Assembly (NCBI GenBank): GCA_937926445.1
Contig: CALBAK010000102.1
Location: 1-37,575, forward strand
DNA length: 37,575 bases
Direction of reading: 5' to 3'
From: an uncultured Alphaproteobacteria bacterium
GTDB taxonomy: Bacteria > Pseudomonadota > Alphaproteobacteria > Geminicoccales > Geminicoccaceae
The position numbers were made by a program, and so were the translations under genes. This document shows positions 16,228 to 22,316 of the stretch, piece by piece; within the stretch, counting starts at the first letter, position 1; every line of letters starts with the position of its first letter. The notes beneath the pieces are model-generated. The model had not been told where the DNA came from. It ran no database searches and saw only the letters and a list, made by a program, of their open reading frames with translations.

Positions 16228-16830
16228 ATGCCGAGGGCTCTGCTCGTATCGCTGGCGATCGTTGGTCTTTCGGTCTCGGCGGGTTTCGCCGACGACATCA
16301 CGGAGCAGATCGACACCGCCAAGAAGCTCTACCAGGAGGGCGATCTGGCCGGTGCGGTGAGCGAACTCGAGTTCGCCATCCAAGGGCTCAAGGCCAAGTT
16401 CGGCGAGGCGTTCCTGGCCACCTTCCCCCAGCCGCCCGAGGGCTGGACGGTCGGGGCGGACGGCGCCAAGGCCGGCGCGATCCCGTTTCTGGGCGGCACG
16501 AACGTCGCCCGGACCTATCGGCAGGTGAACGGCCCGGGGAAGATCGAGGCGCAGCTGTCGACCGGCGGCGGAATGCTCCAGGGTCTCGCCCAGATGTTCG
16601 CCAACCCGCAGATGCTGGCGATGCAGCCCAACGCCAAGCGGGTGCGCATCCAGCGCGAGACGGCTACCACCACCTACGATCCGAAAACCCGAGAAGGGCA
16701 GCTCGTGCTCGATCTCGGCGGCAAGGCCACGATCATGCTGCAGGGTTCGGGTCTATCGGGGCCCGAGCCGCTCGTCGAGCTGGCCCAGCGCTGGGACCTG
16801 AAGCAGACGCGAGCGCTCGCCGGTCTCTGA
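16228..16830 (+). CDS. Small secreted protein of unknown function
   Basis: 200 residues. A clear signal peptide (MPRALLVSLAIVGLSVSAGF, cleavage near FAD) is followed by a single TPR-like helical hairpin (ITEQIDTAKKLYQEGDLAGA) and then a beta-rich domain beginning FPQPPEGWTVG and containing MLQGLAQMFANPQM. I do not recognise the family. It is probably periplasmic. The ATG at 16228 has AAGGGAGAAGG just upstream. A GC hairpin follows the stop, so it appears to be monocistronic, ending before the liv operon. The frame is open a further 94 codons upstream but without coding character. Confidence 0.78.
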   Translation: MPRALLVSLAIVGLSVSAGFADDITEQIDTAKKLYQEGDLAGAVSELEFAIQGLKAKFGEAFLATFPQPPEGWTVGADGAKAGAIPFLGGTNVARTYRQVNGPGKIEAQLSTGGGMLQGLAQMFANPQMLAMQPNAKRVRIQRETATTTYDPKTREGQLVLDLGGKATIMLQGSGLSGPEPLVELAQRWDLKQTRALAGL

Positions 16831-16838
16831 GCTTGCCC

Positions 16839-16859
16839 GCGCGAGCCATGCGCTCGCGC
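16839..16859 (+). terminator. GC hairpin after the small secreted protein gene
   Basis: GCGCGAGC at 16839-16846 pairs perfectly with GCTCGCGC at 16852-16859 around a 5-base loop, starting 9 bases after the stop codon. There is no U-tract, so termination would be weak or factor-assisted. It separates the gene from the liv promoter. Confidence 0.4.
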
Positions 16860-16952
16860 CGAGGCTCGGTTGCGCCGGTCACGGGTGTGTCTTAAAGCCT
16901 CGAGGAACGCCGGCAGGAGGCGCTCGCGTCGAACGGGGCGGCTGCGAGAAGC

Positions 16953-16968
16953 TGGCACGAGTTTTGCT
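16953..16968 (+). promoter_or_regulatory. Sigma-54 (RpoN) -24/-12 promoter of the liv operon
   Basis: TGGCACG-AGTT-TTGCT matches every defined position of the RpoN consensus TGGCACG-N4-TTGCW, with GG and GC correctly 12 bases apart. Transcription is predicted near 16979, only about 2 bases before the livH ATG at 16981, so the mRNA would be almost leaderless. A loose half-site for an NtrC-like activator (TGCGCC, 16871) lies about 80 bases upstream; that is speculative. Confidence 0.72.
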
Positions 16969-16980
16969 TGCGTGGGGTCG

Positions 16981-17895
16981 ATGGCCTACTTCATCCAGCA
17001 GCTGATCAACGGCGTCGCCCTCGGCATGGTCTACGGGCTGATCGCGATCGGCTACTCGATGGTCTACGGGATCATCGGGATGATCAACTTCGCTCACGGC
17101 GAGATCTACATGATCGGGGCGTTCGTCTCGATCATCACCTTCACGCTGCTCGGCATGCTCGGCCTCTCTTGGGCGCCGCTCGCACTCCTGCTCGTCCTGA
17201 TCGTGGCGATCGGGGTCACTTCGCTCTACGGCTGGACGGTCGAGCGGATCGCCTACCGGCCGCTGCGCGGCTCGTTCCGCCTGGCGCCGCTCATTTCCGC
17301 CATCGGCATGTCGATCTTCCTGCAGACTTATGTCCAGGTCGCTCAGGGTGCCAAGATCAAGCCCCTGCAGCCGGTCGTCACCGGCGGCTTCACCTTCGCC
17401 GACGCCTCGGGCTTCACCGTCACGATCTCGTGGATCCAGATCCTCATCGTCGTGCTGACGCTCTTGCTGATGGTCGGCTTCACCTGGGTGATCGCGCGAA
17501 CGCCGCTCGGTCGGGCGCAGCGGGCCTGCGAGCAGGATCTCAAGATGGCGGCACTCTGCGGGGTCGACGTCGACCGGACGATCTCTTTGACCTTCGTGAT
17601 CGGCGCCGCGCTCGCGGCGGTGGCCGGGCTCATGGCCACCCTCTATTACGGCGTGATCGACTTCTTCATCGGCTTCCTCGCCGGGGTGAAGGCTTTCACC
17701 GCCGCCGTGCTCGGCGGCATCGGCTCGATCCCCGGGGCGATGCTGGGCGGTCTCGTGCTCGGCCTCGCCGAGGCCTTCTGGTCCGGCTATTTCTCGATCG
17801 AGTACAAGGACGTGGCCGCCTTCACCATTCTCGTGTTGGTACTGATCTTCCTGCCGACCGGGATCCTCGGGCGGCCCGAGGTCGAGAAGGTCTGA
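16981..17895 (+). CDS. livH: Branched-chain amino acid ABC transporter permease LivH
   Basis: 304 residues, about eight membrane helices. The N-terminal MAYFIQQLINGVALGMVYGL and MVYGIIGMINFAHGEIYM are hallmark LivH sequences, and the conserved EAA-like loop (RTPLGRAQRACEQDLKMAALCGV) contacts the ATPases. With LivM it forms the inner-membrane channel for high-affinity Leu/Ile/Val or related amino acid uptake. The ATG at 16981 aligns with usual family starts. The sigma-54 element directly upstream implies nitrogen-status control and a nearly leaderless transcript. LivM begins 5 bases after the stop. Confidence 0.95.
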   Translation: MAYFIQQLINGVALGMVYGLIAIGYSMVYGIIGMINFAHGEIYMIGAFVSIITFTLLGMLGLSWAPLALLLVLIVAIGVTSLYGWTVERIAYRPLRGSFRLAPLISAIGMSIFLQTYVQVAQGAKIKPLQPVVTGGFTFADASGFTVTISWIQILIVVLTLLLMVGFTWVIARTPLGRAQRACEQDLKMAALCGVDVDRTISLTFVIGAALAAVAGLMATLYYGVIDFFIGFLAGVKAFTAAVLGGIGSIPGAMLGGLVLGLAEAFWSGYFSIEYKDVAAFTILVLVLIFLPTGILGRPEVEKV

Positions 17896-17900
17896 GCCCC

Positions 17901-19177
<1,277 letters not shown>

Positions 19178-19181
<4 letters not shown>

Positions 19182-20026
19182 GCCGGCCGATCCTCGAAGT
19201 GCTGCACCTCACGATGCGGTTCGGCGGCCTCGTCGCCGTCGACGACCTCACCTTCACCGCATACGCCGACGACGTCACCGCGATCATCGGGCCCAACGGT
19301 GCCGGCAAGACCACCGTCTTCAACTGCCTCACCGGCTTCTACCGGCCGACCGCCGGCCAGCTCACCTTCCACGGCCACGAGGGCCCGGTGCTGCTCGAGC
19401 GGCTCGAGGGGTTTCGCGTGCCGCGCCACGGCCTCGCCCGGACCTTCCAGAACATCCGCCTGTTCGGCGGCATGAGCGTGCTCGAGAACCTCGTGGTGGC
19501 GCAGCACAACCGTCTCATGCGGGCTTCGGGCTACACGCTCCTCGGGCTTTTCGGTGCCGCCTCCTACCGCCGCGCCGAAGCCGAGGCGGTCGAGCGGGCG
19601 CACTTCTGGCTCGAGCGGACGGGGCTCCTCGAGCGGGCCGACCGGCCCGCCGCCTCGCTACCCTACGGCGAGCAACGCAAGCTCGAGATCGCCCGCGCGC
19701 TCTGCGCCGGCCCCAAGCTCCTCTGCCTCGACGAGCCGGCGGCGGGGCTCAATCCGCGCGAGACGGCCGAACTCGGCGAACTCCTGCTCGAGCTGCGCGA
19801 CCGGCACGGGATCGCGGTGCTCCTGATCGAACACGACATGAGCCTCGTGATGCGCATCGCCGACCACATCGTCGTGCTCGACTACGGCCGCAAGATCGCC
19901 GACGGCCCGCCGGCCGAGATCAAGCGCGATCCGGCCGTGATCAAGGCCTATCTCGGCGAGACCGAGGAGGAGGAGCTGCCGCCCGAGGTCGCAGCCGATC
20001 TCGCCGGCTCGGGAGGCGGCGGCTGA
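19178..20026 (+). CDS. livG: Branched-chain amino acid ABC transporter ATPase LivG
   Basis: 282 residues from GTG 19178. ABC ATPase motifs: Walker A GPNGAGKT with TTVFNCLTGFYRPT, the LivG-specific HGLARTFQNIRLFGGMSVLENL, a signature written LPYGEQRKLEIARAL (the LivG variant of LSGGQ), Walker B LLCLDEPAAGLNP and the switch His in IEHDM. It energises LivHM from the cytoplasm together with LivF. Compared with many LivG proteins it has a short acidic C-terminal extension ending in Gly repeats. The stop overlaps the livF start (TGATG). Confidence 0.95.
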
Positions 20027-20736
20027 TGCTCGAGATCGAGGGGGTCGTCGCCCGCTACGGCGCCATCGAGGCCCTGAAAGGCGTCTCGATTCGGGTCGGG
20101 GCGGGCGAGATCGTCACGATCATCGGCGCCAACGGGGCCGGCAAGTCGACGCTCCTCATGACGATCTGCGGCGATCCGCGTGCGGCCGCCGGCAGGATCC
20201 GTTTCGACGGCCGCGACATCACCGACATGGCGACCTACGACATCGTCCGCCTCGGCATCGCTCAGGCCCCCGAGGGACGCAGGATCTTCCCGCGCATGAC
20301 CGTGCTCGAGAACCTGATGATGGGCGCGGTGCCGAGCGGCGGGGTCCATTTCGAGGCGGACCTCGAGAAGGTCTTCACCCTCTTCCCGCGCCTCAAGGAG
20401 CGTCGGAACCAGCGCGGCGGTACGCTCTCGGGTGGCGAGCAGCAGATGCTCTGCATCGCTCGGGCGCTGATGGCCCGTCCCCGCCTGTTGCTCATGGACG
20501 AGCCGTCGCTCGGCATCGCGCCGATCCTCGTCCGACAGATCTTCGAGGCGATCGTGGCGCTCAACCGCGAGCTCGGCCTGCCGATCCTCCTGGTCGAGCA
20601 GAACGCCTACCAGGCGCTCAAGATCGCCCATCGCGGCTACGTGCTGGCGAGCGGCCGCGTGGTCATGCAGGGCACGGGGCGCGAGCTTCTGGCCGATCCC
20701 GAGATCCGCGCCGCCTATCTCGAAGGTGGTCACTGA
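20026..20736 (+). CDS. livF: Branched-chain amino acid ABC transporter ATPase LivF
   Basis: 236 residues. Walker A GANGAGKST, the LivF hallmark APEGRRIFPRMTVLENLMMGA, signature LSGGEQQMLCIARAL, Walker B LLLMDEPSLGIAP, and VEQNAYQALKIAHRGYVL. It forms the heterodimeric motor with LivG. The start at 20026 shares one base with the LivG stop. The next gene starts 8 bases after its stop, within the same operon. Confidence 0.95.
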   Translation: MLEIEGVVARYGAIEALKGVSIRVGAGEIVTIIGANGAGKSTLLMTICGDPRAAAGRIRFDGRDITDMATYDIVRLGIAQAPEGRRIFPRMTVLENLMMGAVPSGGVHFEADLEKVFTLFPRLKERRNQRGGTLSGGEQQMLCIARALMARPRLLLMDEPSLGIAPILVRQIFEAIVALNRELGLPILLVEQNAYQALKIAHRGYVLASGRVVMQGTGRELLADPEIRAAYLEGGH

Positions 20737-20744
20737 GAGGAGCC

Positions 20745-21098
20745 ATGGATCTCGAGAGCCTGCTCGGCGGTCCCCCCGGCGTCTTCCTCGGCCTGACCGT
20801 GGTTCTGGTCGGCTCGGCCGCCTGGCTCACCGGCCGGGCGATCGCCGAGACCTGGCGGCCGGTGCGCCAACTGCTGTTCGCCTGTCTCGGTCTGGCGATC
20901 GCCGCCCGGTTTCTTACCTTCGCCCTCTTCCACGGACCGCTTCTCTCGCTCTCGGGCTTCCTGATCACCTACCTCGTGCTCGCCGGCATAGGCCTTCTCG
21001 CCTGGCGGGTGACGCTCGTGGGCCGGATGGTCCGCCAGTACCCTTGGCGCTATCGGAGGGTGTCGCCTTTCGCCTACGAGGAGATGCGCGAACCGTGA
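20745..21098 (+). CDS. Small membrane protein of the liv operon (possibly DUF6867)
   Basis: 117 residues with three predicted membrane helices (about 12-31, 41-61 and 66-88) and a basic cytoplasmic tail ending RYRRVSPFAYEEMREP. A protein of this size in this place, between livF and livK, recurs in alphaproteobacterial liv operons; I associate it with DUF6867 from memory, without certainty. No function is known; an accessory role in the transporter is inferred from position only. It starts 8 bases after livF with GAGAGGAGCC as ribosome site. Confidence 0.82.
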   Translation: MDLESLLGGPPGVFLGLTVVLVGSAAWLTGRAIAETWRPVRQLLFACLGLAIAARFLTFALFHGPLLSLSGFLITYLVLAGIGLLAWRVTLVGRMVRQYPWRYRRVSPFAYEEMREP

Positions 21099-21212: not shown

Positions 21213-22316
21213 ATGACCCGTCTGTCTTCGCTCCTCCTCGGCACCGTCGCGCTCGTGGCCCTCGGCGGTACGGCCCGGGCCGACATCCTGGTCGCTACCG
21301 CCGGGCCGATGACCGGCCAGTACGCCAGCTTCGGCGAGCAGATGAAGCGCGGCGCCGAGATGGCGATCGCCGACATCAACGCCAAAGGCGGCGTGCTCGG
21401 CCAGAAGCTCGTGCTCGAGATCGGCGACGACGCCTGCGACCCCAAGCAGGCGGTCGCGGTCGCCAACCAGATGGTCAACAAGAAGATCAAGTTCATGGCC
21501 GGGCATTTCTGCTCCGGCAGCTCGATCCCGGCCTCGAAGATCTACAACGAGGAGGGGATCCTGCAGATTACCCCCGCCTCGACCAATCCCAAGCTCACCG
21601 AGCAGGGGTACAAGAACGTCTTCCGCACCTGCGGTCGCGACGACGTCCAAGGCATCTACGCCGCCAACTACGTCGTCGACAAGAAGATCGGGTCCAAGAT
21701 CGCCATCCTCCACGACAAGTCGGCCTACGGCAAGGGCCTCGCCGACGAGTTCCAGAAGCAGCTCAACAAGCGCGGCGTCAAGGAGGTGATGTACGAGGCC
21801 TACAATCAGGGCGACAAGGACTTCTCCGCCCTGATCACCAAGATGAAGGGTGCCGGTGTCGACCTCGTCTATATCGGCGGCTACCACACTGAGGCTGGGC
21901 TGATCACGCGGCAGTCGCGCGAGCAGGGCTTCGGCGCCCAGATCATGTCGGGTGACGCGCTCGTCGACCAGCAGTACTGGCAGATCACCGGGCCTACGGG
22001 CGAGGGCACGCTCATGACCTTCGCTCCCGACCCGCGTGCCAACCCGGCGGCCAAGGATGTGGTCGCCAAGTTCAAGGCGCAGGGCTTCGACCCCGAGGGG
22101 TACACGCTCTACACCTACGCAGCGTTCCAGATCTTCGCCGAAGCGGCCAACCAGGCCAAGTCGACGGACCTGAACAAGCTGATCGAGACCCTGCGTGCCA
22201 ACACCTACAACACGGTGATCGGACCGATCGCTTTCGACGAGAAGGGCGATATCAAGAACCCCGAATATGTCATGTACAAGTGGAGCAACGGTCAGTACGC
22301 CGAGATCAAGGGCTGA
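21213..22316 (+). CDS. livK: Branched-chain amino acid ABC transporter binding protein LivK
   Basis: 367 residues. A signal peptide (MTRLSSLLLGTVALVALGG, cleavage after ARA) precedes a type I periplasmic binding fold: ILVATAGPMTGQYASFGEQM, GDDACDPKQAVAVANQMV, AGHFCSGSSIPASKIY, ITPASTNPKLTEQGYKNVFR, GYHTEAGLITRQSREQG. The two Cys in DACD and HFCSGS form the usual disulfide of LIVBP relatives. It captures the amino acid for LivHMGF. It lies 114 bases after the small membrane protein, with GGGAGAGC before the ATG. A weak promoter-like pair (TTGCAA at 21118, TAGGCT at 21140) may allow extra expression, as is common for binding proteins. A hairpin follows the stop. Confidence 0.95.
   Translation: MTRLSSLLLGTVALVALGGTARADILVATAGPMTGQYASFGEQMKRGAEMAIADINAKGGVLGQKLVLEIGDDACDPKQAVAVANQMVNKKIKFMAGHFCSGSSIPASKIYNEEGILQITPASTNPKLTEQGYKNVFRTCGRDDVQGIYAANYVVDKKIGSKIAILHDKSAYGKGLADEFQKQLNKRGVKEVMYEAYNQGDKDFSALITKMKGAGVDLVYIGGYHTEAGLITRQSREQGFGAQIMSGDALVDQQYWQITGPTGEGTLMTFAPDPRANPAAKDVVAKFKAQGFDPEGYTLYTYAAFQIFAEAANQAKSTDLNKLIETLRANTYNTVIGPIAFDEKGDIKNPEYVMYKWSNGQYAEIKG

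Follow-up and report, generated by a model that had tools for sequence, protein, structure and literature searches.

The liv operon of an uncultured Alphaproteobacteria bacterium (Geminicoccaceae) may be served by two promoters, a sigma-70-like promoter and a lineage-specific sigma-54 promoter with an activator other than NtrC. Judged from the sequence, this reading was given an even chance of being correct. The DNA was taken from assembly GCA_937926445.1 (contig CALBAK010000102.1), and the window, i.e., the whole stretch that was analysed, was 37,575 nt in length and read on the forward strand.

The sigma-54 -24/-12 element, TGGCACGAGTTTTGCT, is located at positions 16953–16968 (forward strand), with its T at 16953, GG at 16954–16955 and GC at 16966–16967; the two dinucleotides are 10 nt apart inside the pattern TGGCACG-N4-TTGCW. 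From T through W, all 12 defined positions of the sigma-54 consensus were matched, as the preliminary description of this DNA had reported. The published consensus is YTGGCACGNNNNTTGCWNNw, in the form quoted in the available text of PMC2848651. Compared with known sigma-54 (RpoN) -24/-12 promoters, consensus YTGGCACGNNNNTTGCW, the site before livH is the same in 12 of 12 positions, in spacing and in sense orientation, and rpoN is present in the genome. An RNA start about 2 bases before the livH ATG, also put forward earlier, is right as arithmetic: taking C16967 as -12 and counting 12 nt from it, +1 falls at 16979 and the ATG at 16981, and a leader of 2 nt (CG, 16979–16980, forward strand) is predicted. 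The SD-like GGGG run at 16974–16977 (forward strand) would be absent from such a transcript. AGGGGG or AGAGGG was found at the position of this run in three congeners (L005–L007). Anti-SD pairing of livH in six congeners ranged from -6.3 to -10.7 kcal/mol, values not separable from those of other genes or shuffles (129 ATG-called genes, median -7.4; shuffles, median -6.4), and SD strength was discarded as uninformative for telling leadered from leaderless livH.

The gene adjoining the element, livH (16981–17895, forward strand), encodes a branched-chain amino acid ABC transporter permease (PF02653, 3.4e-47; NCBIfam LivH, 379 bits, equal to the cut-off of 379). The protein also matched the UrtB model, at 144.5 bits and under the cut-off. 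The gene call is sound: of the 25 loci retrieved as relatives, 22 had an ATG at the aligned livH start. Downstream on the same strand are livM (permease, 17901–19181; BPD_transp_2 and DUF3382) and, from gene bounds and translation, two ATPase genes at 19178–20026 and 20026–20736, which, from gene order and translation, are probably livG and livF, respectively. A gene for a DUF6867 protein (20745–21098, forward strand) lies inside the cluster before that of the substrate-binding protein (21213–22316, forward strand; Peripla_BP_6, searched from 21207), so that the order is livH-livM-ATPase-ATPase-DUF6867-binding protein, with livH first. The product of the gene upstream of livH (16228–16830, forward strand), about 200 aa in length, had no Pfam match at 0.001; the 3′ end of the gene is recognisably common to the congeners. 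Just past its stop, an inverted repeat, GCGCGAGC-CATGC-GCTCGCGC, was observed at 16839–16859; by eye, its arms are not kept in congeners. No Rfam family reached its gathering score over the whole window. In a blastn search against plasmids, 142 records were matched, none over more than 80% of the query, and the matches listed were five Azospirillum livM/livH regions.

Orthologues of livH were present in all six genomes of the genus searched (L004–L009). A GG/GC element was located 28–29 nt before the ATG in four of them (L004–L007, scoring 12, 10, 10 and 11 of 12, respectively) and was lacking in L008 and L009, which are sisters in the livHM tree (11 rows). Alignment with relatives had been proposed in the preliminary description as a check on the GG/GC pair and on its spacing to the ATG; both were retained in 4 of the 6 congeners, and the pair was lost in the other two. 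The wider set consisted of 104 loci with 100 nt of upstream sequence, comprising 25 found by searching for relatives plus 80 from named genome contigs, minus L060 (too short); L027 (partial match) and L030–L033 (weak paralogues) were left out, and positions are off by a few bases at those loci whose matches start at residue 2–4. The core GGCNC-N5-TTGC was found in sense orientation in 4 of 6 congeners (at -27/-28) vs 1 of the 98 other loci (L088, at -70), and in antisense orientation at none of the 104. A 12-position score of at least 10 within 80 nt was reached in 4 of 6 congeners vs 2 of 98 others (L018 and L088), the 98 being not fully independent, with L062 duplicating L012 and L036 identical to L019 at 99 of 100 upstream bases. 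None of these 98 non-genus loci carried the element at the same place.

The absence of the site from its place in two congeners and in the other genera examined favours the alternative that the 16-mer is fortuitous and has been kept by kinship, livH being transcribed solely from the sigma-70-like promoter. This possibility is a serious one, to which we give somewhat less than an even chance. The conservation of the site as a whole agrees with it: in the four-way alignment, 8 of 16 columns were invariant in the site vs 67 of 134 intergenic columns outside it, and when all 12 positions were used as the mask, the site was equalled by 26 of 134 placements. Overall conservation was therefore rejected as proof, and because whole-site identity equals the background, only the distribution of the invariant columns is informative. 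All 8 core columns were invariant and none of the 4 spacer columns was; when the 8-position core mask, which was set after the alignment had been viewed, was slid over the 134 placements, only one reached 8, and this was taken to be the site itself. Such a coincidence of the invariant columns with the RpoN core, combined with a variable spacer, argues against chance. The Caulobacter RpoN motif GGCNC-N4-CTTGC, which has the same core, is given in the available text of PMC4287350, and the match to it was found only after the mask had been set. The strict core was not fitted by 5 of the 10 glnB and urtA sites described below. Simulated neutral drift from the site of the window gave the scores of the relatives with probabilities of 0.31, 0.15 and 0.03, each taken singly.

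Pattern counts were likewise in keeping with a chance origin. With at most one mismatch allowed, the 11-position pattern had 1 match in the window vs 0.36 expected, and at least one match occurred in 32 of 100 shuffles. When the genome (3.71 Mb, 120 contigs) was searched with the reversed pattern as the control, the strict 11-position pattern had 2 matches vs 1 for the control, and the 12-position pattern, at a tolerance of one mismatch, had 22 vs 24. Motif abundance was thus rejected as proof of a sigma-54 site, the reversed control being equally frequent. The element adjoining livH was the only site in the genome matching 12 of 12 positions. Four of the 22 sites, as placed with a rough gene caller, were in sense orientation less than 100 nt from a called start, namely those before livH, glnB, urtA and flgF, and 0.4–0.9 of 22 random sites, by our estimate, would be expected in this class. 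The 219 called starts from the window and a sampled 6% of the genome had, at distances of up to 130 nt, five sense and two antisense sites scoring at least 10. The genes glnB, urtA and flgF are of types classically served by sigma-54, and their presence in the same positional class speaks against a fortuitous livH site. As to the names of these genes, the PII and UrtA profile matches were below their own cut-offs and that of flgF (TIGR02490) was above; the gene following glnB, from its translation, is presumably glutamine synthetase. It is position together with the conservation pattern, not counts, that lifts the livH site above chance, and these provide moderate support for it as a probable promoter element.

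A sigma-70-like promoter candidate, TTGCGC-N17-TAAAGC (16870–16898, forward strand), was found approximately 83–111 nt upstream of the livH ATG and is present as a single copy in its own genome. Were transcription to begin some 7 nt beyond the -10 box, i.e., near 16905, the leader would be about 75 nt in length and would contain the G-run at 16974–16977. The candidate thus predicts transcription starting well upstream of 16953, an outcome that the preliminary description had itself named as counting against its proposal. The form TTG-N20-TAAAG was carried by 5 of the 6 congeners and by 5 of the other 13 family loci, i.e., 10 of 19, always with 17-nt spacing, and was missing from 9 of the 19. 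The five further loci belong to two other genera and carry TTGCGC, TTGCCT or TTGCTT. Outside the family, the element was found at 3 of 86 loci (L062, the duplicate of L012; L098; and L105). In sampled upstream regions, TTGC..TA was weakly enriched, with 12 sense vs 5 antisense occurrences at spacings of 16–17 and 2 vs 2 at 18; in 132 such regions, TTG..TA occurred 19 times in sense vs 8 in antisense orientation at spacings of 16–17, and 27 vs 16 at spacings of 14–20. General promoter motif discovery on the 132 sampled regions was discarded, its top pairs being noise-like.

A 15-codon ORF (ATG to TAA; 16848–16895, forward strand) overlaps the sigma-70-like element, with TAAAGC doubling as its stop. 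Length and frame of the ORF were kept in 6 of 6 congeners; in L008, the stop is kept as TGA and the TAAAGC box is lost. Changes were spread over the codon positions (18, 15 and 15), giving no support for coding constraint, and a conserved leader peptide was rejected on this ground as a demonstrated feature. The ORF may represent a leader peptide or a by-product of the promoter block.

Profile search revealed one full-length RpoN in the genome (PF04552, 1.4e-60; TIGR02395, 393.8 bits vs a cut-off of 277.35), and the presence of rpoN, on which the earlier proposal had been made to depend, was thereby confirmed. Six PF00158 matches were obtained in the genome, of which four are strong enhancer-binding proteins. 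NtrC and NtrX scored above the NCBIfam cut-offs, and their genes belong to the cluster ntrB-ntrC-ntrY-ntrX of contig 35, in which NtrB scored 204.7 vs a cut-off of 240 and NtrY was named by gene order. An FlbD-like protein (681.6 vs the FlbD cut-off of 750) adjoins a protein that reads as FlhA. In addition, a PEP-CTERM-type sigma-54 response regulator (L137:1066–2412; TIGR02915, 643.9 bits) is preceded by a histidine-kinase-like gene. This last, PrsR-like protein is a possible candidate for an activator other than NtrC.

NtrC of enteric bacteria binds palindromes of the form TGC-N11-GCA. As a positive control amtB was unsuitable, no site scoring at least 9 being found in the 700 nt before this gene in its own genome, and glnB and urtA were taken instead because the site list pointed to them; this choice favours the two genes by selection and has no bearing on their conservation in congeners. 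The sigma-54 site of glnB was kept in 4 of 4 readable genomes of the genus, a set excluding G004 (no glnB at the threshold) and G001 (copy cut off). That of urtA was kept in 6 of 6 congeners at 11–12 of 12 positions, vs 4 of 6 for livH. The urt (urea) ABC transporter operon is thus a related transporter operon with an upstream sigma-54 site in the same genomes, as at livH, but palindromes are located near urtA and no perfect one near livH. Also, GGAGGCAT was seen by eye before the ATG in six urtA loci.

Perfect TGC-N11-GCA palindromes starting 120–170 nt before the ATG were found in 4 of 4 glnB and 5 of 6 urtA regions. Among these 10 regions, five had perfect pairs, four had one perfect and one degenerate copy, and L170 had a single degenerate copy. 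Measured from the predicted starts, the centres are at about -107/-87 for glnB and about -116/-75 for urtA. With degenerate copies included, the palindromes (L160–L163 and L165–L170) are mostly in pairs, spaced by 20 bp at glnB and by 41–42 bp at urtA, and their distance from the sigma-54 sites hardly varies within the genus. By contrast, no perfect palindrome was present within 344 nt before the livH ATG in any of the six congeners, and livH lacks the perfect palindromes seen about 75–117 nt before the start at glnB and urtA. One-mismatch copies (5 of 6 letters) occurred in 4 of 6 livH intergenic regions (L005–L007 at -17, L006 at -147 and L009 at -83) and scored low on a matrix built from the glnB and urtA copies, which is circular for those two genes and not for livH. 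Perfect palindromes at -345 to -353 from livH in three genomes, and the best livH matrix score (8.4, at -394 to -398 in three genomes), fall inside the upstream gene. Direct NtrC control of livH, as far as palindromes can tell, is unlikely because perfect copies occur at glnB and urtA and none near livH; activation by another enhancer-binding protein is possible.

The predicted livH leader of 2 nt differs from those of other sigma-54 promoters. Leaders of 45–49 nt for glnB and 40–42 nt for urtA (40–49 nt together) and of about 16 nt for flgF were predicted, and the sigma-54 start of aoxAB in Herminiimonas, mapped by 5′ RACE, gives a leader of 26 nt according to the available text of PMC2848651. 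An element too near the ATG for a normal leader, like the absence of an NtrC-type enhancer site, is in line with a fortuitous 16-mer. Leaderless mRNAs resembling the predicted livH 5′ end 2 nt before the AUG are fairly common in Alphaproteobacteria, with 171 leaderless starts in S. meliloti (available text of PMC3616915) and 320 starts located 0–10 nt ahead of the start codon in B. japonicum; the B. japonicum set is unlike livH in its motif, which in the accessible portion of PMC4842269 is an extended -10 (TGnTA) and not -24/-12. In the article texts covered by our literature search, no sigma-54 promoter with leaderless livH or a near-leaderless transcript was found.

It could also be supposed that an RpoN closed complex before the ATG damps read-through from the sigma-70-like promoter and yields no useful message. 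Such a block would be consistent with the location of the site, 3′ of the other promoter candidate, and with the lack of any NtrC-type enhancer that could be recognised there, and repression or interference roles have been proposed for intragenic sigma-54 sites of Salmonella in the available text of PMC3844500. However, the sense orientation and promoter grade of the livH site are unneeded for such roles, and we regard this explanation as distinctly improbable. The reading of the preliminary description, i.e., NtrC/RpoN nitrogen control of liv with the near-leaderless RNA as the main message, is very improbable indeed and was not supported as to NtrC: it can draw on the perfect -24/-12 site, the ntrB-ntrC-ntrY-ntrX cluster, the degenerate palindromes near livH in L005–L007 and L009, and the Sinorhizobium meliloti liv operon, which rises under nitrogen stress via GlnD/GlnBK plus an unknown additional component (available text of PMC3596328), but perfect palindromes occur at glnB (4/4) and urtA (5/6) and none is nearer than 345 nt to livH (6/6), the degenerate copies are low on the matrix, and the more widely kept upstream element predicts a normal leader.

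In the two-promoter reading that we favour, the older, housekeeping sigma-70-like promoter at 16870–16898 would produce an RNA with a leader of approximately 75 nt, translated from the livH ATG by ordinary initiation. At the clade-specific sigma-54 promoter (16953–16968), RpoN polymerase would wait as a closed complex, which would be opened by an activator of the enhancer-binding type, but not by NtrC bound in the classical way. The resulting RNA would begin 2–3 nt before the ATG, and the message with its 2-nt leader may be translated. A more far-reaching proposal, which we hold to be unlikely, is that an RpoN promoter has arisen less than 30 nt from the start codon in one lineage and that a non-NtrC activator replaces the leadered, SD-containing mRNA of the operon by a leaderless one, shifting how livH is translated in relation to livMGF.

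If the RpoN promoter is unused, the site serves as a warning that consensus matches, taken by themselves, do not exceed chance in the genome studied, and that urtA and glnB are told from noise by position, conservation and enhancer sites. If it is used, an RpoN target outside NtrC control would be added in an unstudied alphaproteobacterial genus, and the choice of sigma factor would also set leadered vs leaderless translation of the first gene of the operon.
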